This document shows, in pieces, positions 2,338-64,000 of a stretch of 64,000 nucleotides of DNA. The stretch is from Candidatus Tenderia electrophaga (GTDB lineage Bacteria > Pseudomonadota > Gammaproteobacteria > Tenderiales > Tenderiaceae), in assembly GCA_001447805.1 (NCBI GenBank), contig CP013099.1, positions 2,985,181 through 3,049,180 of the forward strand, read 5' to 3'. A model generated the notes under the pieces. The model did not search any database, was not told the DNA's origin, and saw only the letters and a program-made list of their open reading frames with translations. Numbering within the stretch: position 1 is the first letter of the stretch; each line of letters opens with the position of its first letter. Position numbers and translations under genes: made by a program.

Positions 2338-3906
2338 TCAGGGTCCGGGCTCACTCGCTCGGTAAAGGCTGGTTTCAACAGCCGGATACATATCGGAAAT
2401 GTATTCTTTGATAAGCGCTTCGGCCCGCGTCGCTTCGGTCTCGAATTCGGCGGCGATGATAACCCCTGCGGCATCGGTGCGCCCACCCAACAGGGTGTTC
2501 TTTGCCTCCAACAGTTTGGCGACATAGTCGTTGGCGGCATATTCGCCGCCGAACCAATCCCAATAGTAAACGACAAGATTTTGCTGGGCGGAGCGCAGCT
2601 TTGCCTTGCGGATGGGGAGTTGCTCACCACGCACCTGCAACTGGGCGGGTCGGTTACCGACCTGACTCCATACGGGGTGTTTCTGCTCCACCATCACGTT
2701 TTGGGAGTTGATAAGCTCGGCGCCCTGGCGCTGCGTGCGATAATAGGCCAGATACAGACTGACACGTCGACCGTCTTTGACGTAGGTCTGTTCCAGCTCG
2801 GCGTCCATACCCAGATAACGCGGCCGCCATGGCGTCAGCGATGTGGGCGCTTGACGCCAACCGTTCTGGGCCTCGGGCATGCTTAGGTTTACGTCCAAAC
2901 CTTGATCTTGGTGAGTGTTGATAGCGGCCGCAGCGGGCCAGATGATCAACACGGCGAAGGCCGCCAGCGCGGCAACGGACATGGACTTACGGTCGACGCA
3001 AGGCGCCCCTGGACTTTCCGCAGACTGGGCGTCGATCTGCGGCTGCCGGGCTTCGTCGTCTTCGCGCCAAAACGATCCAAGCCAGAACAACAACAGCATG
3101 ACAATACCGAAGAACACCCAGCCGTAAATAAAGTGATCCACGCCATGGGCCAGTTTGTGGTCGCTGAGATGGGAGATCATGACGATCATGTAGGCGCGCA
3201 GCCCGTTGGCGATGATGGGAACGACGATGGCCGCCAGGACAAACAGCAGGCGGCGCGTCAGGCTGCGATAGGTGACATAGGCGTAAAGCACCCCCAGGGT
3301 GACGGAGGCGATGAGGTAACGCACCCCGCTGCAGCCTTCCACCACTGACCAGCGGCTGCCCGGTATCTCGAAGAACAGTCCTTCCTTGAACACGGGGATG
3401 CCGGTGAGTTGCAGCATCTTGACGGTGAATTCGGCGGTAAAGTTCATCAGCGGCGGGATCAGGCCTTCGCCCATGGGGACGGCAAAGATAAGAAAGCCCA
3501 ACGGAAAGGCTAAGCTGCGCAGCATCCGCCAACCGAACACGACCCACACCAGCACCGGCAGCATGGCCACCAGCGCCAGCTGTTGCACCACCAGCACGTC
3601 GATGGCATTGGCCAACCACCACAGCATGCCCAAAGCGAACAAGGGCGCCAGGGCCTTGTAATCAGGCCGCAAAGGCGTATGGGCAAGCTGTTCGCGCCGC
3701 TGCCAGATAAAGTAGAGACTGATGGGCAGAATAAAGAACCCGTGGGCGAAGGTCTCGGAGCGCCACCAGATGGCCACCATGGAGGCGCTGGTCGGCCAAA
3801 ATATCAGCAGCCCCGCGGCCAGGGTCAGGGCAATCAACGTGGCGATAGTGGTCGGCGAGATTGCGGGTCCACCTGCTTGGGTTATGGTGTGCTGTTCTGC
3901 ATTCAT
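2338..3906 (-). CDS. xrtA: Exosortase A with fused EpsI domain
   Basis: This is a polytopic inner-membrane transpeptidase-like enzyme that recognises PEP-CTERM sorting signals, cleaves them and probably transfers the protein to a surface carrier. The 522-residue protein has about eight hydrophobic segments in the first 280 residues. The exosortase catalytic residues are all visible: Cys192 in EGCSGVRYL, Arg237 in ANGLRAYM and His258 in HGVDHFIYGW. Residues from about 300 on form the periplasmic EpsI domain, fused as is usual for the XrtA subtype. It follows the glycosyltransferase gene with a 4-bp gap. A PEP-CTERM substrate is encoded at 23038-23877. Confidence 0.96.
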   Translation of the reverse strand: MNAEQHTITQAGGPAISPTTIATLIALTLAAGLLIFWPTSASMVAIWWRSETFAHGFFILPISLYFIWQRREQLAHTPLRPDYKALAPLFALGMLWWLANAIDVLVVQQLALVAMLPVLVWVVFGWRMLRSLAFPLGFLIFAVPMGEGLIPPLMNFTAEFTVKMLQLTGIPVFKEGLFFEIPGSRWSVVEGCSGVRYLIASVTLGVLYAYVTYRSLTRRLLFVLAAIVVPIIANGLRAYMIVMISHLSDHKLAHGVDHFIYGWVFFGIVMLLLFWLGSFWREDDEARQPQIDAQSAESPGAPCVDRKSMSVAALAAFAVLIIWPAAAAINTHQDQGLDVNLSMPEAQNGWRQAPTSLTPWRPRYLGMDAELEQTYVKDGRRVSLYLAYYRTQRQGAELINSQNVMVEQKHPVWSQVGNRPAQLQVRGEQLPIRKAKLRSAQQNLVVYYWDWFGGEYAANDYVAKLLEAKNTLLGGRTDAAGVIIAAEFETEATRAEALIKEYISDMYPAVETSLYRASEPGP

Positions 3907-23037: not shown

Positions 23038-23877
23038 TTAGGCGCTAGCGGCCTTATTCTTCTTGTTGCGACGTGCAACCAGACCACCGGCCAGCAGACC
23101 TGCGCCCATCAGGCCCAGAACCGAAGGCTCAGGGATGGTGGTGATCTGGTCAAGGGTCAGGTCGATCGAGGTAGAACCACCGTTCGGGTCGATGACGAAC
23201 TCCAATGCACCCAGGTTGGTGAAGTCTACCACCTGAGTACCACCCGGGGCACCGACGGCATCGGAACAGGTGATGGAGTTGACACCCGGTGCCGGATTCA
23301 CCGCGCCGCACAGGAAGGGGTTGGTGAAACCGGAGAACGGAATGAATGAAGTCGTGGCACTGTTAACCGCACTAGCGGAGAAGCTGATTTCGGTCCAGTG
23401 GGTCGCATCGGTGTAGGCACCGACCAGGAACTCATAACCCGCGTCAGAGAACAGAGTGGTGACACCAAAGCCGCTAAGAGTACCACCAGCGGTCAGATCC
23501 ACACCACCCAAACCATCGGGATCAAGGGCGATGCTGCCGTCCAAACCATCCCATTGCACGGTCCCGGTCCCTGCGGCCAGGCTATCAACACTGAAATCCA
23601 GCACGCCACCCGCAACACCAATAGTTGCTTCACGAGTCGGCACGCCGTCGTTATCCAAAAGCTCTACGAACAGATCGCGTTCACCCGCAGCATCACCGAC
23701 ACCCGTAAGAATATCCCCGAGGCCACTGCTAACGGAACTCGAAACCCCACCACCGCCAACGGTACCGTCGGACAACTCAGCCTGATCTGTGGTAAACAGA
23801 TCGATAATAGCCGCGTTGGCGCTCATGCTCATGCCCAACAGCGCGGTTCCAACCATTAATTTCATTTCGCCTTTCAT
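23038..23877 (-). CDS. PEP-CTERM sorting-signal protein
   Basis: The start is placed at the ATG at 23877, preceded by AAGGAG. The 279-residue product has a signal peptide ending MSMSANA-AIIDL. A secreted domain of about 225 residues follows, rich in Gly, Thr, Asp and Ser. At the C-terminus lies the PEP-CTERM signal: IPEPSVLGLMGAGLLAGGLV, then a basic tail ARRNKKNKAASA. XrtA should cleave this signal and release or anchor the protein outside the cell. The secreted domain resembles the N-terminal domain of the 27581-31246 product, with shared blocks such as GVLDFSVDSL, VQWDGLDG and VDFTNLGALEF. It has its own -24/-12 promoter and terminator. Confidence 0.93.
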   Translation of the reverse strand: MKGEMKLMVGTALLGMSMSANAAIIDLFTTDQAELSDGTVGGGGVSSSVSSGLGDILTGVGDAAGERDLFVELLDNDGVPTREATIGVAGGVLDFSVDSLAAGTGTVQWDGLDGSIALDPDGLGGVDLTAGGTLSGFGVTTLFSDAGYEFLVGAYTDATHWTEISFSASAVNSATTSFIPFSGFTNPFLCGAVNPAPGVNSITCSDAVGAPGGTQVVDFTNLGALEFVIDPNGGSTSIDLTLDQITTIPEPSVLGLMGAGLLAGGLVARRNKKNKAASA

Positions 23878-23936
23878 CTCTAGCTCCTTAAGAAAACTGT
23901 AATCATTCAAAAATTGTTGTTCTTCGCTCATCATAA

Positions 23937-24042: not shown

Positions 24043-24368
24043 ATCTTGGCACCCCGAACACCCAAGCCCCCTCGAGCTGCGCAGAGCATACACCAGTTTT
24101 AGAGCGCAATGCCCAGCGCCTTGCGGGGCATAAACATCATGCTTAAGTACACCGCCATCGACTGGCGGCGCTCCGGTGTAAAAAATTTTGACACCCCCGC
24201 CCGACCAAACCCCCGGATCTTAAATTAGGGCATGATTGTATTCCCTTGTGCGCTGGGGCATCATGTGGCGTGCCCAGGGCCCGCGACGGCCAAACGGCAC
24301 ACGCATCAATCAAACACGACACCCGGACCACCTGTATATATAGTAAATCACGACCTCGCGGAGCACGC
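24043..24368. other. Intergenic region upstream of prsT copy 1
   Basis: No gene is seen between the divergent PEP-CTERM protein and prsT genes. Two small hairpins are visible, one at about 24110-24131 (ATGCCC/GGGCAT) and one at 24148-24180 (TACACCG/CGGTGTA with an inner GCC-GGC stem). TTGACA occurs at about 24187-24192, but no good -10 follows at the usual spacing. The prsT promoter is therefore not assigned. A weak ribosome-binding site (CGGAG) precedes the chosen ATG at 24369. Confidence 0.4.
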
Positions 24369-27155
24369 ATGTTCGATTTTTCCACCAAGAATTCTGCCCT
24401 GACGTTCATCACCTTATTATTGCCGCTGCTGCTGGCCGCGTGCAGCACCGAGCTGTCCGAACAGGCGTTGCTCGAACGCGCCAAGGACCACCTGGACAAG
24501 GGCGAACTGCGCGCCGCTTCCATCCAGCTCAAAAATACGCTGCAACAGAATCCTGAAAATCCCGAGGCGCGCTGGCTGCTCGGCAATGTACATTTGGACA
24601 TGGGTGATCCGGCGGCGGCGGAAAAGGAGCTCAAACGGGCCCGCGAACTGGGTGTCGTAGACGAATCGGTGCGCCCCCTGCTGGCCCGCAGCTATGCGTC
24701 CCAGGGCAAGTACGACGACGTGCTGGCCTTACCGATCGAGGGGCTCTCGCCCAAGGCGCAGACACAGATCCTGGCCGCCCAGGCCACCGCCTTGATCGCC
24801 CAGAACCGTTATGAGGAGGCGCAGGCGAAGGTCGAGCGGACACTCGCCCTGCAGCCCGACTCAACCGTGGCCGTCACCGAGCAGGCCCGCCTGGCGCTGG
24901 CCCGCAACGAGCTGGAACACGCCAGAGATCTGCTGGACAAGCTGCTCCAACGCGACGACACACACGCCCCGGCCTGGAGCCTGCTGAGCGAAATCGAACG
25001 CCGCGAACAGCGCCCCGAGGCGGCGGAAGCCGCCCTCACTCAGGCCATCGAAAACCGCTTTAACAATGTGATCGATCGCCTCAAGCGTGCCCTGGTGCGC
25101 GTCGAGCTGAAGAAATACGATGCCGCCCAGGCGGACATCGACAAAGTCAAAAAACGCATCCCCAACTACTACGAACTCCATTACGTCCAGGGCCTGGTGC
25201 ACTATTATCAGCAGCGCTACCCCCAAGCTCAGGCGGCCTTGGAACTGGCGCTTAAGGCCAACGACCAATTCATGCCGGCGCTGTTCTATCTCGGCGCCAC
25301 CCATCACCAGCTGGGACAACGGGAACAGGCGGAGAACTTGATATCCCGCTTCGTCGCCGCCAATGCGGGCTTTATCCCGGGCCGCAAGTTGCTGGCCGAA
25401 ATCCGGTTGCAGGAGGGCGATTTCGCCGCGGTGGAACGGCTGCTGCGCCCGGTGGTAAACGCCAATGGCGAAGATGTGGCGGCGCTCAATCTGCTCGCCA
25501 TCGCCCTCATCCAACAGGGCAAACGCGACGAAGGTGTCTCGCTGTTGGAAAAGATCGTCGCTCTGCAACCCGACTCCGCCGACGCCTACCTGCGGCTGGG
25601 CGCCGCCCTGTTGGCCCAAGACAATGAGGCCGAGGGCATCCGCATGCTGGACAAGGCCGTCGAGCTTGACCCCGAACGCCAAGCCACCGCCGACAAAGTC
25701 CTCATCCGTCACTATCTCGATAATGATAAACCGGACCAGGCCCTGGCGATCGCACAGAGCTATCGCCAGCGCAATCCCGAACAGGCCGATGCCCATATCA
25801 TGTTTGGCTTGGCGCAACTGGCGCGAGACGAGACTGAAGCGGCCAAGGCGGCGTTCAACAAAGCCCGCCAGATCGAATCGAGCAACATCACGGCCAACCA
25901 GAACCTGGCCGCACTGGCCCTCAGCGACCAGGATTACGCCGCGGCGCGCCAATACTATGAGGCGATCCTGGCACAGCACGCCGATCACCTGGACACCTTG
26001 ATGAAACTGGCGCTGTTGGACGATTTGCAACAACGCCCAGCCGACATGGTGACGCATCTGGAGCAGGCTATCGCCGCCCACCCGGAGGCCGTGCAGCCGC
26101 GCACATCCCTGGCCCGTCACCACCTCGCCAATGGCGAACCCGAGAAGGTCGCCGTGGCGCTGGGCGATCTGTCCCAAACCCGTTTCGACCATCCTGAAGT
26201 GGTGGAGGTGTTGGGTCGGGCCCAGCTGGCACAACGCGCCTCCGGCGAGGCGCACGCCACCCTGGCCCGCTTGGTGGCGCTGCAGCCGGAATCCGCCCAG
26301 GCCCATTATCTGCTCAGCCTCGCCTATGCCCAGCTCGATAACCTGCAGGCCGTGCGCAAGGAACTGGAGCAAAGCACTCGCATCGACCGCGACTACCTGC
26401 CCGCCCACCTGGCGCTGACCCGGCTCCTGCTCAGCCAAGGGGATACCGCGGCCGCGCAACAGCAACTGGACACACTCAAGCGCCTGGCCCCCGGCAACCC
26501 CGACGTGTTGGCGCTGCAAGGCCGATTGGCGCGCGCCAGCGGGCAGCAGGACAAGGCGCTGGATATTTATGCCGAGCTGTTCGAAAACAACTCCACCAGC
26601 ACCAACATGCTGGCGCTGGTCCAGCAACGCTGGGAGTCCGCTGACCGTCAGGGCGCCATGGCCTTGTTGAAACAGTGGCTGCAACAACACCCTGACGACC
26701 TGGCCGCGCGCCTGCGTCTGGCCAATGCCTACACACTCAGCGAACAGGATGACGCCGCTGCGCAGCAGTATCAAGCGGTACTTGAGCGTTCGCCGAATAA
26801 CCTGGTCGCCCTCAACAATCTGGCCTGGCACCTGCAAGACAGCGACCCGAAACAAGCGCTGCAATACGCCGAGAAGGCGGATACCTTGGCGCCCGGGTCG
26901 GCGGGCATTCGCGATACCCTGGCGGTAGTGCTCATGAAAAACGGCCAACACGAACGTGCCCTGCGTATCAGCGACACCCTACTCGAAAAACACCCCGATG
27001 ATGCCGCGCTCACCTTCCACAGGGCCATGATCCTGGCAGGCGCAGGACGCGGCGCCGAAGCGGAAGGTCTACTCACCGAATTACTGCAACAGGCGGATGC
27101 CTTTCCCGAGCGCGCCGCAGCCGAGGCACTGCTGAGCCGACTCCGGAACAGCTGA
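24369..27155 (+). CDS. prsT: PrsT, XrtA system TPR-repeat lipoprotein, copy 1
   Basis: The start is placed at the ATG at 24369, which begins a lipoprotein signal with lipobox LLAAC (Cys about residue 25). The frame is open to 24246, but the upstream part is not protein-like. The 928-residue mature protein is almost entirely tetratricopeptide repeats. It opens LSEQALLERAKDHLDKGELR, and one clear repeat reads NPENPEARWLLGNVHLDMGD. PrsT proteins (TIGR02917 type) accompany XrtA/PrsK/PrsR systems and probably act as a periplasmic scaffold for polysaccharide or PEP-CTERM protein export. A second copy lies at 31549-34338 in the opposite direction. Confidence 0.93.
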   Translation: MFDFSTKNSALTFITLLLPLLLAACSTELSEQALLERAKDHLDKGELRAASIQLKNTLQQNPENPEARWLLGNVHLDMGDPAAAEKELKRARELGVVDESVRPLLARSYASQGKYDDVLALPIEGLSPKAQTQILAAQATALIAQNRYEEAQAKVERTLALQPDSTVAVTEQARLALARNELEHARDLLDKLLQRDDTHAPAWSLLSEIERREQRPEAAEAALTQAIENRFNNVIDRLKRALVRVELKKYDAAQADIDKVKKRIPNYYELHYVQGLVHYYQQRYPQAQAALELALKANDQFMPALFYLGATHHQLGQREQAENLISRFVAANAGFIPGRKLLAEIRLQEGDFAAVERLLRPVVNANGEDVAALNLLAIALIQQGKRDEGVSLLEKIVALQPDSADAYLRLGAALLAQDNEAEGIRMLDKAVELDPERQATADKVLIRHYLDNDKPDQALAIAQSYRQRNPEQADAHIMFGLAQLARDETEAAKAAFNKARQIESSNITANQNLAALALSDQDYAAARQYYEAILAQHADHLDTLMKLALLDDLQQRPADMVTHLEQAIAAHPEAVQPRTSLARHHLANGEPEKVAVALGDLSQTRFDHPEVVEVLGRAQLAQRASGEAHATLARLVALQPESAQAHYLLSLAYAQLDNLQAVRKELEQSTRIDRDYLPAHLALTRLLLSQGDTAAAQQQLDTLKRLAPGNPDVLALQGRLARASGQQDKALDIYAELFENNSTSTNMLALVQQRWESADRQGAMALLKQWLQQHPDDLAARLRLANAYTLSEQDDAAAQQYQAVLERSPNNLVALNNLAWHLQDSDPKQALQYAEKADTLAPGSAGIRDTLAVVLMKNGQHERALRISDTLLEKHPDDAALTFHRAMILAGAGRGAEAEGLLTELLQQADAFPERAAAEALLSRLRNS

Positions 27156-27292: not shown

Positions 27293-27310
27293 GTCGAAAA
27301 ATTTAACATC
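27293..27310 (+). promoter_or_regulatory. Candidate upstream activator site for the repeat-protein gene
   Basis: GTCGAAAAATTTAACATC resembles the minus-strand motif at 24025-24042 (14 of 18 identical). It lies 52 bp upstream of the -24 GG of a sigma54 promoter, a normal distance for an enhancer-binding protein. PrsR is the obvious candidate by context. Confidence 0.4.
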
Positions 27311-27360: not shown

Positions 27361-27376
27361 TGGCACCAAAATTGCT
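27361..27376 (+). promoter_or_regulatory. Sigma54 (-24/-12) promoter of the repeat-protein gene
   Basis: TGGCACCAAAATTGCT matches the sigma54 consensus at all key positions, with GG and GC 10 bp apart. Transcription should start near 27388, leaving a leader of about 190 nt before the ATG at 27581. With the matching promoter at 23937-23953 it suggests joint control by RpoN and PrsR. Confidence 0.82.
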
Positions 27377-27449
27377 TTGCATCCATGCAGATATGCCTCC
27401 CCGCGCTGCGCGTTCCGAAAATGCAGTGCCGAAGTTAGCAGGAAACACT

Positions 27450-27584
27450 ATGTCGATCATCAACAACGCACGTTTGCAACACGGTCCAGCCCGTTTGCTG
27501 TCGCCGACAACCGGCTTAGCGCCTCTGGCGTCCGGTCATGGCCACCACAACAATTCAAATACATGCAAGGAGACTGCGTCATGA
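27450..27584 (+). CDS. Possible 44-residue leader ORF, stop overlapping the repeat-protein start
   Basis: Within the leader expected from the sigma54 promoter, an ATG at 27450 opens a 44-codon frame (start MSIINNARLQHG). It is preceded by GCAGGAAACACT, which contains a weak AGGA ribosome-binding site. Its TGA stop overlaps the ATG of the large downstream gene (ATGA), the arrangement seen in translational coupling. The predicted peptide has a GHGHH stretch but no known motif. The downstream gene also has its own good ribosome-binding site (AAGGAG), so coupling is not required. The frame may be non-coding. Confidence 0.3.
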   Translation: MSIINNARLQHGPARLLSPTTGLAPLASGHGHHNNSNTCKETAS

Positions 27585-30500
27585 GGAATTCATTCACAGC
27601 GGCAACGTTACGGCGTTGGCTGATAGCATTGCTGGTGCCCCTGGCCATGCTGCCCGCCCTGGTCCCCACCGCCCAAGCGGGGATTATCGACAGCTTCACG
27701 GTGGCGCAGCAGGCCATCGACACGACGGCGGGCGCCGGCGGCGTGTCAGACACGTCGGCCTTCGGCGCCTCTATCCTCGGCGGCCAACGCGACATTAACG
27801 CCGATTCTCTGATCATTTCCAGCGGCAGTGCCGCTGAAACGAATATCACCATCGGCTCTGGTGTACTCGACTTCAGCACCGATTCACTGGTCACCGGCAC
27901 CGGCCTGGTCCAGTGGGACGGCCCCGATCAGGACACCACCCTCGACCCCACCGGCCTCGGTGGTATCGATCTGACCGAAGGGGGCACGGTAGGCCCAATC
28001 TCGTTCCAGATTCTGTTTGCCCAGCCGACTGCGGGTTTCCGCTTCACCGTGGAGGCCTATACCGATGCCGGGACGTATTCCATTGTCGAGTTCTACTCGC
28101 CCGAAGTGCCTGCCGCGACAGCAGTCAACATCCCTCTGGGGATCTTCCAAGACTGCGGTACGGGCCCCGTCAATCTGGGAATGGTCGACGTATTATCAGT
28201 CAGCTGCGGCTCTGGACCAGTAGACTTCACTAACCTCGGCGCGCTGCAAATGCGCATTAATACCGGCCCCAACCCGACCACCTCGCTGGATCTCACCATT
28301 GCCGAGATCAACACGGTTCAGACCCTGGCCGCCATCGGCGACTATGTCTGGGAAGATAACAACAGCAACGGTATTCAGGATAACGGCGAATCCGGTATCG
28401 CCGGTGTCAATGTCAATCTGTATACCTGCGGCGGCGTATTGGTGGACTCCACCGTCACCAATGCCGGCGGCAACTACCAGTTCACCGGCCTGATGCCCGG
28501 TGATTACTATGTCGAATTCATCACCCCGGCCGGCTACACCCCCACCCAACAGGATGCCAATGGCAACGCTCAGGATGCCCTGGATAGCGACGCCGATCCG
28601 TTCACCGGCCTGACCATCTGTACCACCCTGGTCGCCGGCGAAGTGGACAACACCTGGGATGCGGGCTTTGTGCCCGAACAGGCCACCGCCGCCATCGGTG
28701 ATTACGTCTGGGAAGACAGCAACGCCAACGGCGTCCAGGATCTGGGCGAACCCGGCATTCCCAATGTGACCGTCAACCTCTACACCTGTGTCGGCGACCT
28801 GGCGGGTTCAATGCTGACCGACCTTAACGGTAACTACCTGTTCTCCGACCTGGCCCCCGGCGACTACTACGTCGAATTCGTCGCCCCTGCCGGTTACAGC
28901 TTCACTCAACAAAACGTCGGCAACGACGGCACCGACAGTGATGCCGACCCGATCACCGGGCAGGCCGATTGCACCACCTTGACCGCCGGTGAAACCGACC
29001 TGACTTGGGATGCCGGCCTGTACCGGCCCGCCGCGCTGGGCGATTTCGTCTGGAACGATCTGAACCAGAACGGTATCCAGGACGACGGCGAACCGGGAAT
29101 CGGCGGCGTGACCGTGCGTCTTTGGAATTGCGCCGGCACGGTGAACCTCGCCACCATCGCCACCGATGTCAACGGTTTCTATCTGTTCGACAACCTGGCC
29201 CCCGGCAGCTATATGGTCGAGTTCGTGCTGCCCAACGGCTTCGTGTTCAGCCCGCAAATCGGTGGTATTCCGGCGCTCGACAGCAACGCCAACCCGGCCA
29301 CCGGCAGGACCGAATGCGTCGATCTGGAGTCGGGTGAGAACGACCTCACCATCGATGCCGGCATGTATGAGCAGGTCGTCGCCACGGCCGAATTGGGTGA
29401 CTATGTCTGGCACGACATGAACGCCAACGGTGTTCAGGATGCCAACGAACCCGGCATCCCCGGTGTCATCGTGGAGCTGACCGATTGTGTCGGCACGCCG
29501 ATCGCCACCACCCTCACCGATGCCTCCGGTCTGTACCTGTTTACCGGTCTGGATGCCGGGGACTATCAGGTCCACTTCAACCTGCCGGTCGGTTATGACG
29601 CGTTTACCCTGCAGGATCAGGGCGCTGATGATGCCAGAGACAGCGACGCCGACGGCAACGGCGACAGCCCGTGCGTCAGTCTCGCCGCCGGCGAAAGCAA
29701 CCGCACCATCGATGCCGGCGTATTCCAGCTGGCCGCCCTGGGCGACTATGTCTGGGAAGACCTGAACCGCAACGGTATTCAGGATGACGGCGATACCGGT
29801 ATCGCGGGTGTGGAAGTCAGGCTGTACCGCTGCGACGCACCTGCGCTTGTGATCGCCACCACCAGCACCGATGCTAACGGTTTCTATCTGTTCAGCGGCC
29901 TGACGCCCGAGCAGTATTTCGTCGAATTCGTCAGCCCGGCCGGCTACGTCTTCAGCCCGAAAGATCAGGGCGGCGACGAGACGCTGGACAGCGACGCCGA
30001 TGCCTCGGGCACCACAGACTGCGTCACCCTGAGTTCGGGTGAAACCAATCTGGACGTGGATGCGGGTCTCTATATCCCCGCGGCGCCGGCCATCGACATC
30101 GAGAAACACACCAACGGTGAAGATGCCGATACGCCCACCGGTCCGATCCTGTCCGTGGGTGACGCCGTGACATGGGAATATTTCGTCACCAATACCGGTA
30201 ACGTCGACCTGATCAATATTGTGGTCACCGACGACCAGGCTGTGACGGTTACTTGTCCGACGGATGTCTTGGCAGTGGGTGCAAGCATGACCTGCACAGG
30301 CGCAGGAATCGCAGTCGCCGGGCAATATGAGAACACCGGCTCGGTGGTGGGCTTCTCGGTATTCGACAACACCATGGTCACGGATGCCGATCCCAGCCAT
30401 TACATTGCCGCGCTGTGTGATCTCAATATCACCAAGACCGCCACGCCTGACAAGATCGGCAACTACGACAAGGACGGCTACGACAAAGACGGCAGCTACA

Positions 30501-31246
30501 GCAGCTATGACAAATACGACCGTTATAGCAGCTACGACAAGGACGGCAGCTATAGCTACAGCAGTTACGATAAATACGACCGTTATAGCAGCTATGACAA
30601 AGACAGCAGCTACGACAAGGACGGTAGCTATAGCTACAGCAGTTACGACAAAGATGGCAGTTACGACAAAGATGGCAGTTACGACAAAGATGGCAGCTAC
30701 GACAAGGACGGCCACTATGTCGGCAAGAGCTACTACGACAAAGACGGCTATGACAGCGGCGCCTGCCCCACCGGCCACGAGGTCACCTATACCTATGTGG
30801 TAAGCAATTTAGGTAGCGCCCTGGCCAATGTCCTGGTCTCCGATGACAAACTGGGTATGATCAGTTTCCCCAACCAGCTTGCCAACGGCCAAAGCGTTAC
30901 CGTTACCAAGACCGCCTGTATCGAGAAGACCACCACCAATGTGGTCACCGTCACCGGCAACCTTCCCACCGGCGCCATATGTTCGGCGACAGATTCCACC
31001 ACTGTCACTGTTGATGGCCACGACGATAAGGATGGCTATGACAAGGACGGCTACGACAAGGACGGTAGCTACAGCGGCTATGACAAGGACGGCTACGACA
31101 AAGACGGCAGCTACAGTAGCTATGACAAGGACGGCTACGATAAAGACGGCAGCTACAGTAGCTATGACAAGGACGGCTACGATAAAGACGGTAGCTACAG
31201 CAGCTATGACAAGGACGGTAGCTACAGCGGCGGCGGTGGCTGGTAA
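27581..31246 (+). CDS. Large secreted SdrD-B/DUF11 protein with YDKDG repeats
   Basis: The start is set at the ATG at 27581, with AAGGAG before it. The 1221-residue product has a signal peptide ending VPTAQA (about 33). Residues 34-245 form a domain related to the PEP-CTERM protein at 23038-23877. Five SdrD-B-like domains of about 115 residues follow (about 249-835), each with a GDYVWED-type start, N-x-NG-x-QD and a DSDAD segment suited to calcium binding. A DUF11-like domain (836-942) and a second DUF11-like domain come next. The second is split by a block of YDKDG/SYSSYDK repeats (about 962-1059), and a further repeat block forms the C-terminus, ending SYSGGGGW. No PEP-CTERM, LPXTG or membrane anchor is visible. 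An extracellular matrix or adhesive role is inferred. Confidence 0.88.
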   Translation: MRNSFTAATLRRWLIALLVPLAMLPALVPTAQAGIIDSFTVAQQAIDTTAGAGGVSDTSAFGASILGGQRDINADSLIISSGSAAETNITIGSGVLDFSTDSLVTGTGLVQWDGPDQDTTLDPTGLGGIDLTEGGTVGPISFQILFAQPTAGFRFTVEAYTDAGTYSIVEFYSPEVPAATAVNIPLGIFQDCGTGPVNLGMVDVLSVSCGSGPVDFTNLGALQMRINTGPNPTTSLDLTIAEINTVQTLAAIGDYVWEDNNSNGIQDNGESGIAGVNVNLYTCGGVLVDSTVTNAGGNYQFTGLMPGDYYVEFITPAGYTPTQQDANGNAQDALDSDADPFTGLTICTTLVAGEVDNTWDAGFVPEQATAAIGDYVWEDSNANGVQDLGEPGIPNVTVNLYTCVGDLAGSMLTDLNGNYLFSDLAPGDYYVEFVAPAGYSFTQQNVGNDGTDSDADPITGQADCTTLTAGETDLTWDAGLYRPAALGDFVWNDLNQNGIQDDGEPGIGGVTVRLWNCAGTVNLATIATDVNGFYLFDNLAPGSYMVEFVLPNGFVFSPQIGGIPALDSNANPATGRTECVDLESGENDLTIDAGMYEQVVATAELGDYVWHDMNANGVQDANEPGIPGVIVELTDCVGTPIATTLTDASGLYLFTGLDAGDYQVHFNLPVGYDAFTLQDQGADDARDSDADGNGDSPCVSLAAGESNRTIDAGVFQLAALGDYVWEDLNRNGIQDDGDTGIAGVEVRLYRCDAPALVIATTSTDANGFYLFSGLTPEQYFVEFVSPAGYVFSPKDQGGDETLDSDADASGTTDCVTLSSGETNLDVDAGLYIPAAPAIDIEKHTNGEDADTPTGPILSVGDAVTWEYFVTNTGNVDLINIVVTDDQAVTVTCPTDVLAVGASMTCTGAGIAVAGQYENTGSVVGFSVFDNTMVTDADPSHYIAALCDLNITKTATPDKIGNYDKDGYDKDGSYSSYDKYDRYSSYDKDGSYSYSSYDKYDRYSSYDKDSSYDKDGSYSYSSYDKDGSYDKDGSYDKDGSYDKDGHYVGKSYYDKDGYDSGACPTGHEVTYTYVVSNLGSALANVLVSDDKLGMISFPNQLANGQSVTVTKTACIEKTTTNVVTVTGNLPTGAICSATDSTTVTVDGHDDKDGYDKDGYDKDGSYSGYDKDGYDKDGSYSSYDKDGYDKDGSYSSYDKDGYDKDGSYSSYDKDGSYSGGGGW
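30464..30756 (+). repeat. YDKDG-coding repeat block 1
   Basis: The units are multiples of three bases. They encode YDKDG, SYSS and YDKYDRYSS in a tandem and partly nested pattern, for example four successive SYDKDG units near 30655-30712. Synonymous codons vary (GACAAGGACGG, GACAAAGATGG, GACAAAGACGG), so the protein repeat is older or more constrained than the DNA repeat. Confidence 0.93.
31022..31231 (+). repeat. YDKDG-coding repeat block 2 (C-terminal)
   Basis: This block holds more regular repeats than block 1, built on an alternation of GYDKDG and SYSSYDKDG. A longer unit of about 45 bases (YDKDGYDKDGSYSS) recurs nearly unchanged three times. The high DNA identity suggests recent expansion by slippage or recombination, so copy number may vary between strains. 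Confidence 0.93.
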
Positions 31247-31279
31247 GCCAAGCTAGTCGGCCGGGAAATTCCCGCTCAG

Positions 31280-31307
31280 GAGGCCCCTTTTGGGGCCTCT
31301 TTTTTTT
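31280..31307 (+). terminator. Rho-independent terminator of the repeat-protein gene
   Basis: A perfect 8-bp stem GAGGCCCC/GGGGCCTC with a TTTT loop is followed by eight T residues. It begins 34 bp after the stop codon. Confidence 0.95.
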
Positions 31308-31548: not shown

Positions 31549-34338
31549 CTAGTCCAGCCGCTCCAAGAGTTGCTGTGCCGCCTGGCGCTCATCGAAGCGT
31601 TCAAAATCCCGCAGCAAGCGCTGCAAGGTCTTTTTCGCCTCCTGTTGCCGCCCCGCCTGGTCGAAGGCCACGGCGAGATGGTAGGCGATGCCGGGGATAT
31701 GAGGTGCACGTATCTTGGCCGCCTGCAACAGCTCCAAGCCACGATTGAGGCGACCGTTCTGGACGAAGATCCAGCCGACCGTATCCACGACCGCAGGACG
31801 ATCGGCGGCCAGGCGGTAGACCCGCTCCGCATACTCCACGGCGCGCTTGTCGCCCTGTTCCTGAAAAGACCAAGCCAGGTTGTTCAACACCACCACGTTG
31901 TCGGGCTCGCTGGCGAGAGTTTGCAGATAATGATCGATCGCCTTATCAAGCTCGCCCAGCCCCTGATAGGCCATGGCCAGCTGCAAGCGGACATGGGCAT
32001 CGTCGGGGTGCTGCTGCAGCCAGGCCTGCAAGGGCTGCAGCGCCTCCTGGCTGCGTCCGGTCTGCCTCAGGATGCGGTGCAGCTTGGCGGCCAAGTCAGC
32101 GCTCTTAGTCTTAGCGAAGGCACTGCGGTAGGCCTCAATAGCTTGCTCCACCCGGCCTTGCACGAGATGGACATCGCCTTCCAGCTCATAACCCGCCCCC
32201 TGTGTCGGCCGATCCTGTTGTAGCTGAGTGGCTATCTCAGTCGCCTGCCGATACTGCTCCAGCTCGATATTCACGCGGCCCAACAACAGGCGGGCGGGCA
32301 CATTGCCCTTATCCAGCGTAACGGCCTGGGTCAGGGTTTCGGCGGCTGCCCGCCACTGCTTGTCATTGATCTGCGCCTGCGCCAGCAACAGCAGGGGTTC
32401 GGGTGCAGCGGGTTGTAGCCCTATCAGTTCTCGGAAGGTGGCCTGGGCACTGTTTGGGTCACCGGCGGCCATTTGCGCTCTGCCCAACAGGGTCAACACC
32501 AGGGGGCGCTGCGGGCGCAGATCGTAGGCCGTCCTGGCCAGCGTCAGCGCCTTGAGGGGCTCACCGGCCGTCAGATGGTGGTTGGCCAGCAACAGCATGG
32601 GCTCGATGGCCTCCGGCTTGGCCTGGCGCGCCTTGTTGATCCACACCATGGCGGTTTCACGATCGCCATTGCTGTCAGCCAGACGTGCCAACGCCAGCAT
32701 GGCGCCGAGATGCTTGGCATCCACCTCCAGCAGATCCAGATAATGCTGTTTGGCGGCCTCGGGCCGCGCCTGGCCCAGCGCCACTTGGGCCAAGCCGGCA
32801 TAGGCGGCGGTGTATCCGGGATCGGTCTGCAAGACCTTTTCGAACTGACGCTCCGCCGCGTCCAGATTCCCGGCATTGGCATGACTGACGCCGAGCAGGT
32901 TGAGAGCCATAGGATTGTCGGGATGCTTTTTCACCAGATTTTGGGCGGCGGCGATCGCCTTATCGAACGCCTGCTGGCGCAAATGGGTATGGACCAGCAG
33001 GATATCCGCCATGGGCATGTCCTGGCCCAGATCAACGGCCATTTCCAGATCACTGACGGCGGCCTCCGCTTCACCGGAGGCCAGTCGACCCAAGGCCAGC
33101 TGAGCGCGTAGGGCCGCGGTATTCGGCGCCAACTCGACCGCCCGTTGCAGATATTCAGTGGCCGTTTCGTTATCGCCGCGTTGCAAATGGGCGGTGCCCA
33201 GCAGGGCGAGCAGCTGGGCGTCGGCGCTTTGATCGGCGATGACATCGAGGGTGGCGATGGCCTGGTCGGCTTGCTTCAGCTTGATATAGACGCTGGCCAG
33301 CACCTTGCGCCCGGTGGTGTGATCGGGCACCGCGGTGACAAACTGACTGAGATAGTATTCCGCCTGTTCCAGCTCGCCTTGCAAATAGTTGGTCACACCC
33401 AGTAGCAACAAGCTCTGAACATGGCCTGGGGCCTGGACCAGCACCTTGTGGAGCGCATTTTCGGCGGCGTCCAGCTGCTGCTGTTGGAACAGTACCACGG
33501 CGTAAAAATAATTGGCCATGGGATGATCCGGCGCCCGTTCCAGGACGCGGCCCAGATCTTCCGCCGCAGAATCAAATTTGCGCAAACGCACCTCGGCGAT
33601 GGCCTTGCCGAGCAAGGCGGTGAAGTTGCCGGGCTTGATGGCCTGCGCGCGCCGGAACACCTCCAGGGCGGCATCGGCGTCGCCGCTGCGGTACAACAAG
33701 TCGCCCTTGAACACCAGGGCGTCGATATTGTCCGGGGCCTGCGCCAGGGCACGGTTTACATACGCCCTGGCCTGCTCCTCGTCCCCGGCGACCAGGGCCA
33801 GCCGGGCCAAGCCCAGCAGCGCCTCGGGCAAGTCGGGACGCAGCTCCAACGCGGCATCGTAGGACTGCCGCGCCGCGCTTATCGATTCCGTCCTCAGCTG
33901 GGCGTCGCCGCGCAGCGCATGCACCAGGGCCTGCGTCCGCGCGTCGGCGTGCTTATCGATCTGAATCTGATCCAGGACTTTGTCGGCCTCGCCCTGCATC
34001 AGATAGGCCCGTCCCAGCAGGGGAATGCCCTCGGCCCGTGCCAAGCCCAGCTCCAAGGCGCGGGCGATCTCCTTTTCCGCGGCGGCGCCGTCGCCCTGCT
34101 CTAGATAGGCCTGTCCCAGCAGATAACGGGCCTGTACATGGCGCGGATCCTGTTGCAGGGCGTTTTTCAATTCGATGACGGCGGCCTGATAGTCCTGCCG
34201 CGCAAGATAATCTTCGGCATTGCGGAGATAGCGATCGGCCTGTTGGGCCGTGACCGCAGTCGGCCCCAGCGCCAACAACACGGCCAGCGTGCAGCGCTTG
34301 GCGCTTAATTTAAAGGGTAAGTATTTCATTTCAGCCAT
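31549..34338 (-). CDS. PrsT-like XrtA system TPR-repeat protein, copy 2
   Basis: This 929-residue TPR protein is full-length homologous in layout to the product of 24369-27155. It starts MAEMKYLPFKLSAKRCTLAV and has a cleavable signal ending TAVTAQQ instead of a lipobox, so it is probably periplasmic but not lipidated. Mature repeats begin DRYLRNAEDYLARQDYQAAV, and one clear repeat reads DPRHVQARYLLGQAYLEQGD. The true start may be the Met at 34329, which has GGA at a reasonable distance. It lies 33 bp after prsR on the minus strand, so it probably belongs to a prsK-prsR-prsT operon, the usual arrangement. Copy 1 may be the derived copy. Confidence 0.9.
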   Translation of the reverse strand: MAEMKYLPFKLSAKRCTLAVLLALGPTAVTAQQADRYLRNAEDYLARQDYQAAVIELKNALQQDPRHVQARYLLGQAYLEQGDGAAAEKEIARALELGLARAEGIPLLGRAYLMQGEADKVLDQIQIDKHADARTQALVHALRGDAQLRTESISAARQSYDAALELRPDLPEALLGLARLALVAGDEEQARAYVNRALAQAPDNIDALVFKGDLLYRSGDADAALEVFRRAQAIKPGNFTALLGKAIAEVRLRKFDSAAEDLGRVLERAPDHPMANYFYAVVLFQQQQLDAAENALHKVLVQAPGHVQSLLLLGVTNYLQGELEQAEYYLSQFVTAVPDHTTGRKVLASVYIKLKQADQAIATLDVIADQSADAQLLALLGTAHLQRGDNETATEYLQRAVELAPNTAALRAQLALGRLASGEAEAAVSDLEMAVDLGQDMPMADILLVHTHLRQQAFDKAIAAAQNLVKKHPDNPMALNLLGVSHANAGNLDAAERQFEKVLQTDPGYTAAYAGLAQVALGQARPEAAKQHYLDLLEVDAKHLGAMLALARLADSNGDRETAMVWINKARQAKPEAIEPMLLLANHHLTAGEPLKALTLARTAYDLRPQRPLVLTLLGRAQMAAGDPNSAQATFRELIGLQPAAPEPLLLLAQAQINDKQWRAAAETLTQAVTLDKGNVPARLLLGRVNIELEQYRQATEIATQLQQDRPTQGAGYELEGDVHLVQGRVEQAIEAYRSAFAKTKSADLAAKLHRILRQTGRSQEALQPLQAWLQQHPDDAHVRLQLAMAYQGLGELDKAIDHYLQTLASEPDNVVVLNNLAWSFQEQGDKRAVEYAERVYRLAADRPAVVDTVGWIFVQNGRLNRGLELLQAAKIRAPHIPGIAYHLAVAFDQAGRQQEAKKTLQRLLRDFERFDERQAAQQLLERLD

Positions 34339-34371: not shown

Positions 34372-35736
34372 TCACTTCAAACCGTATTTATTCATCAGGT
34401 CATACAGGGTGGGCCGACTGACGCCGAGGGCCTCGGCCGCCTGGGAGATATTATTGTCAAACATATTGATCGCCCGCGCGATGGCGCCACGCTCGGCGCG
34501 CTCGCGCACCGCGCGCAGATTCAAGGGCATGCTGCCCTCATCGGCCACTTCGTCCAGCTCCAGCGCTTCGGCGTTGATGCAATTGCCCTCGGCCATAATC
34601 ACGGCGCGCTTGAGCTTGTTTTCCATTTCACGCACATTGCCGGGCCAGCGGTAGTTCTCGACGGCCAGGGTACCGTCTTCGGTGAAGCCGCGCAGATTGC
34701 GGCCATGGTCGCGGGCGAAACGTTCCAGGAACACCCTGGCCAACAACAGGGCATCGCCGTCGCGCTCACGCAGCGGCGGGATGTTGATAATGATTTCGCT
34801 GATGCGGTAATAGAGATCCTCACGGAAGGCGCCGCTTTCCACCAGCTGCATGAGATTCTGGTTGGTGGCGCAGACTACGCGCACATCCACCGGGATTTCG
34901 CCGCGCCCGCCCAGGCGTTCGATGACCCGCTCCTGAAGAAAACGCAGCAGTTTGACCTGCAAGGATTGGGGAATATCACCGATCTCATCGAGAAACAAGG
35001 TGCCGCCGTCGGCATATTCGATCTTGCCCTTGGTCTGCTTGCCGGCACCGGTAAAGGCACCCTTTTCATAACCGAACAATTCGCTTTCCAGCAGGGTCTC
35101 GGGGATGGCGCCGCAGTTAATGGCCACGAAGGGCTTCTTGGCCCGGTCGCTGAGATTATGCAGGGCCCGGGCGATGACCTCTTTACCCGTACCGCTCTCC
35201 CCCAGCAGCAAGGTGGTCGCCCCGGTGGGCGCGACTTTTTCGATGGTGCGGCAGACCTTCATCATCTGCGGACTGGTGGCGATAATACCCTCGATGGGCG
35301 AGGCGCCGCTCTGCTGCAGCAGCTTGCGGTTTTCCTGTTCCAGCTCGAACAGGTAGTAGGCCCGTTCCACCAACAGCCCCAGCACCTCGGGTTCCACCGG
35401 CTTTTGATAAAAGTCATAGGCGCCCTTGGCGATCGCCTGGACGGCGTTGGCGCGCTCGTCGTTGCCGGTCACCACGATCACCTTGGTGGCCGGCGCCAGG
35501 GCCAGGATTTCCTCCAGTGCGGCCAGGCCTTCGGAGGCATTTTCGGGATCGGGCGGCAAGCCCAGGTCGAGCAGCACCACCGCCGGCTCGTGGCGCCGTA
35601 GGGCGCTGATGGCTGTGCCCCGGTCGGCGGCAATCACGACGTCATAGCCTTCAAAACACCACTTCATCTGGCTCTGCAGGCCGGGATCGTCCTCGACTAC
35701 CAGCAGCTTCTTTTGCTCTTGCTTTGCACGACTCAC
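34372..35736 (-). CDS. prsR: PrsR, PEP-CTERM-system sigma54-dependent response regulator
   Basis: The 454-residue protein is an NtrC-like regulator (TIGR02915 type). The receiver domain has its phospho-acceptor Asp at about residue 57 (VVLLDLGLP). A sigma54 AAA+ domain follows, with Walker A GESGTGKE near 179-186 and the sigma54-contact loop GAFTGA near 226-231. At the C-terminus is a Fis-type helix-turn-helix ([20 protein letters not shown]). It should activate -24/-12 promoters, and two good ones occur at 23937-23953 and 27361-27376. It lies 41 bp after prsK, its presumed kinase gene. Confidence 0.96.
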
Positions 35737-35777: not shown

Positions 35778-37859
35778 TCAACCTGGCACCTTGGGTAGCG
35801 ACAGGCGAAACAGGGTGCCCTCCCCGGGCCGGCTATGCACCTGCACCTCTCCGCCCAGGCCGCGCACGAACTCGCGGCACTCATAGGCGCCGATGCCCAT
35901 GCCAGCATTCCCCTTGGTGGTGTCGAAGGGACGGAACAGCCGATCGCGGATAAATTTTTCGTCCATGCCGCAGCCGTTGTCTTGTATTTCGATGACAGCA
36001 TTTTGACTATCCGAAGTCAACCGCAGCTCCACCCGGCCATCGGCGGCGCTGGCCTCCTGGGCGTTCTGCACCACATGCTCGATCACCGCCGCCAGGCGGT
36101 CATGCTCGGCGATGACACTCACACCGGTATCGCCCGCGCTGAACACCGGCACCGGCTGCTGTGCCGAACGCTGGCGCACCACCTCTTCCAGCAGGGGCGA
36201 CAGGCGCACGGCGACCGAGCTGCGCTGCGCTTCACGCCCTTGGCGCAACTGGGTGAGCATGCGCTGCATCTTGTTGACGGCGTTATCCACCGTGGCCATG
36301 GCGTCGTCGACAAATTCCTGCTTGTGGCCGAACTTCTTGGCGTTGGCCACCACCAGCGACAATTGACCCACGACATTCTTAAGGTCATGGACCACATAGG
36401 CCGACAGCCGGTTGAAGGCCTCGAACTGGCGCGCATTGGCCAGCTCGGCGCTGGCCCGGGATAAAGCCAGATAACTGGCCGCCTGGCTGGCGGCGGTCTT
36501 GAGCAGGTCGCGGTCCTCCCAGTTGATCGTGTGCGCGGCGCGCGACTGCAGCAGCAGCACCATGCCAATCATACGCCGATTCTGGAATAACGGTATCACC
36601 AGCCAGGCGCGCTCGATTGCCGCCAGCCAGGCGGGCAGCGTCAAGGACGCGTAGACCTCGGGCGCCACCGCCCACTCATCCAGATCCACCAGCCACTCGC
36701 TGGTCTTGAGAAACTCCACCAGGGCGTCGTCCGCCGCCACTGCGGCGGGACCGGTGGCGTTCCACTCACTGGCCAACTCGAAGCGGCCGGTTTGCTCGTC
36801 GACCACCCACAGCAAGCCGCCCGGGCTGTCGACGATGGCCGCCAGGGCCTGCAGGATGCGCTCGCTCAGGCCGGGCCCGGGTTCCTCGCTGGCCAGGGCG
36901 CCGATGAAGCTCAGCCACTCCTCGCGGTAGTCGTATTTGTAGTTGAAAAAATGCTTGCTGAGAAATACCCGCACCCGGGCCCGCACCTGCCCGGAAAACA
37001 TCAAGGCAAACAGCAACAGGGCGGCGCCGAACAGAAAGATCACCTGGGCCAGGGTGCCCCAGTCGCCGCCCAGAAAGCGGATGGCATAGCCCCCCAAGGC
37101 CATCAAGGTGAGATAGGTGCCGGCCCCGAGGATGGCGGCGCTGTGGAATACCATGCGCCGGGAGACAAACACATCCAGCGACCATTGCGGGTTACGTGCC
37201 GCCGACACGGCGATCAAGGGAATCACCAGGATATGAATAAAGCCGCGCACGTCCCAGAGTTCGCGATCCACGGTGTTGAACAGCACCGCATTGGAATAGA
37301 GATAAAAGTCGTACGCGAACAGCCCGCCCAAGCCCAGACACAGATACTTGATGGCCCAGCGTTGCTGCGGTGGGCTGTTGCGAAACAAGTGCTCGACCAG
37401 CACCAAGCCGAACAGCGCCAGGACCAGGTGTCCGGCAAAGCGCGGATCGTAACCGAGCGTGGCGGCGACGGATTGCTCATAAAACCAGGTGTAGCCATGC
37501 AGCGCCAGCACGCAAACCCAGACCGCCGCCACGGCGTAAGCCATCCAGCGCAGGCCGCTGACATTGGACGAGTCAAGGCCTTTACCCAGCGGCAGGATCT
37601 TGTAGAGAAACAACAGCGCCACACCGCTGCGCAGCAATTCCAGCGCGGCGTACTGAATCGACAGCGGCAAGGCATAAGCCAGGGCGTAGGCCAGGGAGCC
37701 GGCCCACAGCGCCGACACCAGACTGAGGGCCAGCAATAACCCGCCCTGCAAGCGACCGCGCCAACTGGTCAGCAACAACACGGCCAGCAGCACATAGCCA
37801 GCGGCGGCCAGGGCGTAACCCCACACACCGGGATGTAAGGCTGCCGAGGTATCAGTCAT
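35778..37859 (-). CDS. prsK: PrsK, XrtA/PEP-CTERM system histidine kinase
   Basis: The 693-residue membrane sensor kinase (TIGR02916 type) has about ten hydrophobic helices in the first 300 residues. A GAF-like domain lies around 310-470, and a dimerisation helix carries the phospho-acceptor His near 491 (YVVHDLKNVVGQL). The ATPase domain includes N, G1 and G2 boxes (VVQNAQEAS, DNGCGMDE, GNAGMGIGAYECREF). It should phosphorylate PrsR. The signal it senses is unknown. It is probably the first gene of the prsK-prsR-prsT operon, 47 bp after the sugar transferase gene, so transcription may run through from that gene. Confidence 0.95.
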   Translation of the reverse strand: MTDTSAALHPGVWGYALAAAGYVLLAVLLLTSWRGRLQGGLLLALSLVSALWAGSLAYALAYALPLSIQYAALELLRSGVALLFLYKILPLGKGLDSSNVSGLRWMAYAVAAVWVCVLALHGYTWFYEQSVAATLGYDPRFAGHLVLALFGLVLVEHLFRNSPPQQRWAIKYLCLGLGGLFAYDFYLYSNAVLFNTVDRELWDVRGFIHILVIPLIAVSAARNPQWSLDVFVSRRMVFHSAAILGAGTYLTLMALGGYAIRFLGGDWGTLAQVIFLFGAALLLFALMFSGQVRARVRVFLSKHFFNYKYDYREEWLSFIGALASEEPGPGLSERILQALAAIVDSPGGLLWVVDEQTGRFELASEWNATGPAAVAADDALVEFLKTSEWLVDLDEWAVAPEVYASLTLPAWLAAIERAWLVIPLFQNRRMIGMVLLLQSRAAHTINWEDRDLLKTAASQAASYLALSRASAELANARQFEAFNRLSAYVVHDLKNVVGQLSLVVANAKKFGHKQEFVDDAMATVDNAVNKMQRMLTQLRQGREAQRSSVAVRLSPLLEEVVRQRSAQQPVPVFSAGDTGVSVIAEHDRLAAVIEHVVQNAQEASAADGRVELRLTSDSQNAVIEIQDNGCGMDEKFIRDRLFRPFDTTKGNAGMGIGAYECREFVRGLGGEVQVHSRPGEGTLFRLSLPKVPG

Positions 37860-60448: not shown

Positions 60449-60484
60449 CGTACGTAAATCCGTACGTAAATCCGTACGTAAATC
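60449..60484. repeat. Three exact 12-bp direct repeats upstream of operator copy 2
   Basis: CGTACGTAAATC occurs three times head to tail with no gap, ending 2 bp before operator-like copy 2. Each unit contains the palindrome TACGTA. One unit is about one helical turn plus 1.5 bp, so stacked binding of a regulator is possible. A simple slippage product is an alternative. Confidence 0.85.
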
Positions 60485-63499: not shown

Positions 63500-64000
63500 A
63501 TGGTAGTAGTCAATCAACATCGACTGTTTGCGCTGGGACTGTGCGCCGCCCTCGCCCTGCACGGGGTAGGGGCGGCCGCACTCCTGTATCGTCATTACGA
63601 GCCGCCGCAGCCCCTGTTGGCGAGCTCCAGTTTTCAGGTGGTGGCACTGGGGGAAGTAAGCACCGCGCCGCCACCACTGGCACAGCGCCAAGCGCCGCCG
63701 GAACCCATTCCCGAGCCGGAACCCATTCCCGAGCCGGAACCCATTCCCGAGCCGGAACCCATTCCCGAGCCGGAACCCATTCCCGAGCCGGAGCCTATTC
63801 CCGAGCCGGAACCGGAACCCATCCCCGAGCCAGAGCCCCTGACCGAGCGTGTGGCGCAACAGGCCCCGCCCCCGCCGACCACGGCACCAGCCATGCCGGC
63901 CGCACCGGTCAAGGACGCCGTAATGGCCAAGGCTGAGTCCGCCACCACGATACAACGCACGCCGCCGCGCAGTGATGCCGCCTATCTCAACAACGCGGTG
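63500..64000 (+). CDS. tonB: TonB energy transducer, N-terminal part (cut by window edge)
   Basis: From the ATG at 63500 the frame is open to the window end (167 codons). A single N-terminal membrane helix ([20 protein letters not shown]) is followed by a rigid Pro/Glu linker of EPIPEP repeats. Then comes the beginning of the TonB C-terminal domain ([12 protein letters not shown]; compare the family pattern YLNNP-x-PPYP). TonB spans the periplasm and transmits proton-motive energy to the receptor encoded at 60635-62719. It lies 13 bp after the DUF4198 gene. exbB/exbD would be expected beyond the edge. Confidence 0.92.
63701..63832 (+). repeat. 18-bp tandem repeats coding the EPIPEP linker of TonB
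   Basis: GAACCCATTCCCGAGCCG occurs five times exactly, then once with two changes, followed by GAACCG and a variant copy. The unit encodes EPIPEP. Near-perfect DNA identity suggests recent expansion, so linker length could vary between strains. Confidence 0.95.

Follow-up and report, generated by a model that had tools for sequence, protein, structure and literature searches.

A window of 64,000 nucleotides (nt) from Candidatus Tenderia electrophaga (contig CP013099.1, positions 2,985,181 to 3,049,180 of the forward strand) was analysed, and all coordinates below refer to this whole stretch. It holds an exosortase locus, and within it a gene for a protein of 1221 amino acids (aa) that appears to be secreted. 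The exosortase A system is usually read as a sorter of PEP-CTERM proteins. The parts of the 1221-aa protein are all known; their arrangement was not found elsewhere in this analysis, the gene is preceded by an apparent PEP-CTERM switch, and the product carries no PEP-CTERM tag.

The gene and its product

The initial annotation had described a secreted giant with a signal peptide, a PEP-CTERM-substrate-like domain, five SdrD_B domains, DUF11-type domains and two blocks of YDKDG repeats. Pfam matches and the open reading frame (ORF) bear this out, and the features are as follows.

27293..27308 (+): PrsR box (motif 1), GTCGAAAAATTTAACA, found as part of a composite pattern match
27361..27376 (+): sigma-54 -24/-12 promoter, TGGCAC-CAAAA-TTGCT
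27581..31246 (+): whole gene, predicted secreted 1221-aa protein, intact ORF
27581..27679 (+): signal peptide, likely cleavage after TAQA (residue 33); read from the sequence, aligns with the signal peptides of PEP-CTERM homologues
27680..28321 (+): PEP-CTERM-substrate-like N-terminal domain (residues 34-247), by homology to PEP-CTERM proteins
28325..30073 (+): five SdrD_B domains (about residues 249-831), Pfam
30083..30412 (+): DUF7507 (CLIPPER_2) domain, Pfam; putative isopeptide triad K842-D884/885-N918
30413..31018 (+): second DUF11-like domain (residues 945-958 and 1061-1146), split by repeat block 1; Pfam and alignment
30455..30760 (+): repeat block 1 (residues 959-1060), nine YDKDG with SYSS spacers; Tandem Repeats Finder and composition
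31019..31243 (+): repeat block 2 (residues 1147-1221), C-terminal tail, nine YDKDG, units of 42 base pairs (bp), ending GGGGW
31278..31301 (+): strong intrinsic terminator, 31 nt past the end of the ORF

AAGGAG sits ahead of the ATG at 27581. A longer ORF from the TTG at 27377 was rejected, since this codon lies only 1 nt past the -12 element, which makes the ATG the likelier start. The mature protein has an isoelectric point of about 4.05, and it matched no defence family. Its end gave no Pfam or NCBIfam match to PEP-CTERM, and neither PEP-CTERM nor LPXTG is present in the translation, as the initial annotation had stated. A normal PEP-CTERM end hidden by a frameshift, which would have removed its case, was ruled out, with none found in three frames to about 350 nt beyond the stop. 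The lack of an anchor is shared with a DUF7507 giant of the same genus and with SdrD_B proteins of other genomes.

SdrD_B (PF17210) is matched over five stretches with 614 bits against a curated cut-off of 29.7, and the calcium-type loop D-x-N-x-N-G-[IV]-Q-D-x-x-[ED] is kept in all five domains. Domains of the SdrD B type bind three Ca2+ ions and withstand about 2 nN, which made them the strongest folds measured up to that report (PMC6232131). A sequence search against solved structures gave a useful placement for this part only (SdrD, UafA). As in the staphylococcal Sdr adhesins (SdrD, SdrC; MSCRAMM), tandem SdrD_B domains with the calcium-loop motif are followed by a repetitive acidic region; unlike them, the 1221-aa protein lacks N2N3 ligand-binding domains and LPXTG, its repeats are of the YDKDG/SYSS type, and one block lies inside a DUF11-like domain. 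The Sdr models of NCBIfam score it well below their cut-offs (382 against 1700 bits, 360 against 2500).

DUF7507 reaches 56.6 bits against a cut-off of 27. DUF11/DUF7507 domains form Lys-Asn isopeptide bonds (PMC12617251), and the spacing of K842, D884/885 and N918 matches the published CLIPPER triad, making such a bond putative here. The last domain is DUF11/DUF7927-like with a weaker Pfam match; with the insert discounted, K952, D1088/1089 and N1120 fall in triad-like positions. The protein resembles the CLIPPER fibrillar adhesins of Gram-negative bacteria (PMC12617251) in its DUF7507 score and triad-like positions, and differs from them in having no sorting domain and in the block of 102 residues that follows the lysine strand of its second domain.

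Surrounding locus, promoter and candidate regulon

The gene lies between two prsT copies, as claimed initially (TIGR02917, 672 and 828 bits against a cut-off of 312), in the following setting.

23038..23934 (-): PEP-CTERM neighbour with the N-terminal domain in common, with its own PrsR box and -24/-12 site
24246..27155 (+): prsT copy 1 (TIGR02917)
31549..34338 (-): prsT copy 2 (TIGR02917)
34372..35736 (-): prsR, sigma-54 response regulator (TIGR02915)
35778..37859 (-): prsK, histidine kinase (TIGR02916)
2338..3906 (-): exosortase gene, TIGR04178 match at about 3067-3348

An EpsB-type transferase also lies beyond the flanking prsT, together with PrsR and PrsK. The genome encodes a type II secretin, and an exosortase was present in all nine relatives tested.

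Residues 34-247 share 45-46% identity with the PEP-CTERM neighbour. The two align as far as DLTIAEINTVQT in the 1221-aa protein and DLTLDQITTIPEPS in the neighbour, and diverge where the PEP-CTERM of the neighbour starts. Because homology stops at that point, the sorting tag was replaced, at its own boundary, by SdrD_B and DUF7507/DUF11 domains and the repeats. In the closest relative the PEP-CTERM gene, prsT1 and prsT2 keep the same order and strands (prsT2 is 73% identical), and a gap of 328 bp stands at the place of the 1221-aa gene, which is absent there. This points to a lineage-specific addition here, or to a loss there.

Upstream of proteobacterial PEP-CTERM genes stands a -24/-12 site that is preceded, across a spacer of 32-92 nt, by a 17-nt motif with TTTACA at its end, and the phylogenetic profile of this promoter motif matches PrsR, PrsK and PrsT (Haft et al., PMC1569441). 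The sigma-54 promoter reported in the initial annotation (TGGCAC-N5-TTGCT) was recovered and, moreover, is preceded by a complete PrsR box, with 52 nt between box and -24 element. The plain sigma-54 pattern is uninformative genome-wide, with 10 matches against 9 for the reversed control; adding the PrsR box gives an informative composite. This composite occurred at 19 sites in 11 genomes of the family against 0 in the reversed control, most of them leading into PEP-CTERM genes, and in 55 of 369 genomes of the class, the reversed control giving 3 matches. In the genome studied here three places match: this gene, the PEP-CTERM neighbour and a site 272 nt before rph. By this promoter site the gene looks like a member of the PrsK/PrsR/RpoN regulon. 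Floc formation in Aquincola involves a PEP-CTERM gene that depends on RpoN and stands next to prsT (PMC9850573). With XrtA/PrsKRT PEP-CTERM proteins of this kind (e.g. PepA, Aquincola tertiaricarbonis, PMC9850573) the 1221-aa protein has in common the PrsR-box and sigma-54 promoter, an adjoining prsT, a signal peptide and the N-terminal domain shared with its PEP-CTERM neighbour; unlike them, it has no sorting tail, is far larger and carries SdrD_B, DUF7507/DUF11 and repeat blocks.

Eighty-seven site regions were fetched, and 41 of their first genes encode PEP-CTERM proteins by a simple tail rule; the rule is rough, and several of the remaining first genes visibly carry variant PEP-CTERM tails. 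Among the other PrsR-box genes without PEP-CTERM are some for large proteins that look exported and carry PKD, F5/8C, laminin-G, DUF11 or dockerin/TSP3 domains. We consider this class, exported proteins that lack PEP-CTERM and are encoded behind a PrsR box, most worth following, and a PrsR box without PEP-CTERM could serve as a sequence signature for finding more matrix proteins.

Further genes also stand behind PrsR boxes. Related proteins of about 60 aa (VDQVPQDFV...VESDxQHVDL) lie directly behind the box at L223 (G265) and L224 (G153). Related proteins of 163-165 aa, with a basic HxxRGRRR stretch near the N-terminus and hydrophobic segments, occur at L210 (G318), L211 (G091) and L214 (G215). 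Two PrsR-box genes without PEP-CTERM, L206 (G195) and L239 (G046), have twin-arginine-like or basic signal sequences, and the L206 product reads NNQGCPGGGG near its end. By eye, L274 (G010:C5) is a 719-aa peptidase/ABC-transporter-like ORF, which may give the regulon a second route of export, and L222 (G265) and L225 (G360) are related GGDEF-like proteins that hint at a cyclic-di-GMP link. In two genomes the composite stands some 272-284 nt ahead of rph (RNase PH), at G000:C1:52735-52830 (-) and G003:C227:1981-2075 (+); this may be chance, or a small gene or RNA may be under its control.

Repeat blocks and their counterparts

YDKDG occurs 18 times in the protein; the corresponding DNA pattern is found 19 times in the genome, 18 of them in this gene and one elsewhere. 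Tandem Repeats Finder scores the arrays at up to 312, and the 42-bp units match at 95%. Such close matching would suit the idea that the repeats are recent slippage products without function, as would the failure to find the gene in relatives. Against it, the frame is intact across both blocks, four of the five variable codon columns of the 42-bp array are synonymous, and an independent lineage carries repeats at the same two places. The synonymous variation fits selection on the protein, albeit on small numbers, and we regard functionless slippage as very improbable.

The initial annotation had treated the pentad itself as special. About 85,000 genomes were scanned for tandem YDKDG with a non-exhaustive pattern beginning GACAARGAYGG, and 56 stretches came out. 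Most of those in frame belong to GYDxxG pentad arrays from thaumarchaea (Nitrosopumilus among them), Nocardia, Elusimicrobia and further groups, and in some of the proteins no signal peptide is obvious. Tandem YDKDG is therefore found in unrelated proteins, and the special status of the pentad is lost; the spaced form fared differently. The initial annotation had said that occurrence in many unrelated cytoplasmic proteins would undo its case, and for the pentad, though not for the form with SYSS spacers, this has partly come about. Here SYSS or SYSYSS spacers break up the pentads, whereas the GYDxxG proteins, alike in their tandem YDKDG, are mostly uninterrupted, with neither SYSS spacers nor SdrD_B/DUF11 context in the stretches printed. 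YDKDG-[ST]-Y-[ST] occurred in one of the 369 class genomes, namely this one. Nothing relevant on YDKDG was found in the literature by title and abstract.

Tyrosine makes up 24% of block 1 (24 residues) and 19% of block 2 (14 residues), giving 38 in 177 residues, and aspartate 25% and 28%. The aspartates and the regular D-K-D-G could be taken to mean that the repeats are specific Ca2+-binding folds, folding on calcium like RTX or thrombospondin type 3, the more so as the SdrD_B domains of the same protein carry calcium-type loops. We think this unlikely: the blocks match no calcium-repeat family in Pfam, the spacing in block 1 is irregular, and D-x-D-G lacks the third ligand of the canonical D-x-D-x-D-G loop. 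The calcium loops once proposed for the repeats belong instead to the SdrD_B domains. The many tyrosines could also serve to cross-link the protein covalently or by redox chemistry (dityrosine, phospho-tyrosine, metal-tyrosinate), in the manner of adhesive matrix proteins. Here the support is compositional, and we give this reading, too, little chance.

In a genome of another family (G025), a homologue of the DUF11 domain, with 44% identity in its core, carries KDKDSD/RRRSYSS repeats at both places, within the domain and as a tail; the site within the domain is flanked by the strands whose counterparts in the 1221-aa protein are ITKTATP and VTYTYVV. G090 has an Asp/Ser-rich insert at the place corresponding to the in-domain repeat, and a giant of the same genus (G001) combines four DUF7507 domains with a Ser-Asp tail and is encoded behind a PrsR box. 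Across these relatives position and charged low-complexity character recur and the sequence does not. The G025 and G001 giants (L024/L093, L122/L278) are like the 1221-aa protein in being apparently exported without PEP-CTERM and in joining DUF7507/DUF11 to a charged low-complexity block or tail; they differ in their repeats (KDKDSD, SD), in lacking SdrD_B and in their N-terminal domains.

The blocks might accordingly do no more than act as a flexible, charged spacer, equivalent here to the Ser-Asp repeats of Sdr adhesins; charge and length would then count and the tyrosines would not. That homologous positions hold Lys/Asp repeats in G025 and the Asp/Ser-rich insert in G090, with an Asp/Ser tail in the same-genus giant, speaks for this, since blocks so different in sequence have only their charged low-complexity character conserved. 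However, a pure spacer needs no tyrosine, and tyrosine is abundant and regularly placed here; the G025 repeats also contain SYSS. Moreover, block 1 is inserted in a domain loop, after the lysine strand, and is not a stalk between domains and anchor. We hold the spacer to be possible and rather doubtful.

Proposed role in a composite matrix

The reading that we favour, and consider fairly probable, is that of a fibrillar matrix protein that leaves the cytoplasm by the Sec route, stays unanchored, belongs to the PrsK/PrsR/RpoN regulon and carries disordered, multivalent charged/tyrosine segments. This reading draws on what can be read from the DNA: promoter architecture, domain content, domain swap, absence of a tag and positions of the repeats. 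The initial annotation proposed a matrix-type protein that belongs to the exosortase system, is secreted and lacks a sorting tail; the full PrsR box and the domain swap from the PEP-CTERM neighbour give this firmer support.

Several points weigh against it. The motif-1 copy ends TTAACA, one change from TTTACA; the distance from promoter to ATG is 204 nt, near the long end of the published 23-221; and rph, an improbable target, is matched by the PrsR-box pattern in two genomes. Close relatives yielded no copy of the gene, so it is not a conserved regulon member. AlphaFold gave a mean pLDDT of about 38 both for the N-terminal domain (two window sequences, pTM 0.35) and for the C-terminal 387 residues (single sequence, pTM 0.23), which makes the models uninformative on fold or disorder.

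We infer the activation by PrsR, the secretion route, the co-localisation, the disorder and all binding roles of the repeats. The gene would have arisen when a copy of the N-terminal domain of a neighbour-like PEP-CTERM protein shed its sorting tag and became fused to the rest of the present protein: five SdrD_B domains of the calcium type, two DUF7507/DUF11 domains of the CLIPPER type and the two repeat blocks. PrsR would switch it on together with the PEP-CTERM neighbour during exopolysaccharide production, and the protein would leave the cell, with type II secretion as a candidate route. The N-terminal domain might then hold it near sorted proteins or polysaccharide, the SdrD_B and CLIPPER domains forming a force-resistant rod. 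The Tyr/Asp/Lys/Gly/Ser blocks, one hanging from the loop of the last domain and the other forming the tail, would be flexible and at the far end, where they could bind each other, polysaccharide, cations or surfaces and so hold the matrix together. Their composition, with tyrosine flanked by Gly/Ser and alternating Asp/Lys, suggests such a multivalent-sticker role.

On this account the gene would have kept the promoter of the exosortase system and a substrate-like domain, and traded the tag for adhesin domains and a tyrosine-rich repeat. This suggests that the regulon builds a composite matrix from sorted and unsorted (unanchored) parts, and the domain-swap gene offers a simple test of the role of the N-terminal domain. 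More tentatively, PrsR may control a second, PEP-CTERM-free arm of the matrix, consisting of giant secreted proteins, some with a domain common to PEP-CTERM siblings, and interchangeable charged/tyrosine blocks in a DUF11 loop and tail; here this would include a new tyrosine-rich polymer that forms condensates or gels.

Two further tandem repeats lie towards the end of the window: an 18-bp repeat at 63697-63813 (6.5 copies, 96% match) and a 12-bp repeat, CGTACGTAAATC, at 60449-60484 in three perfect copies.

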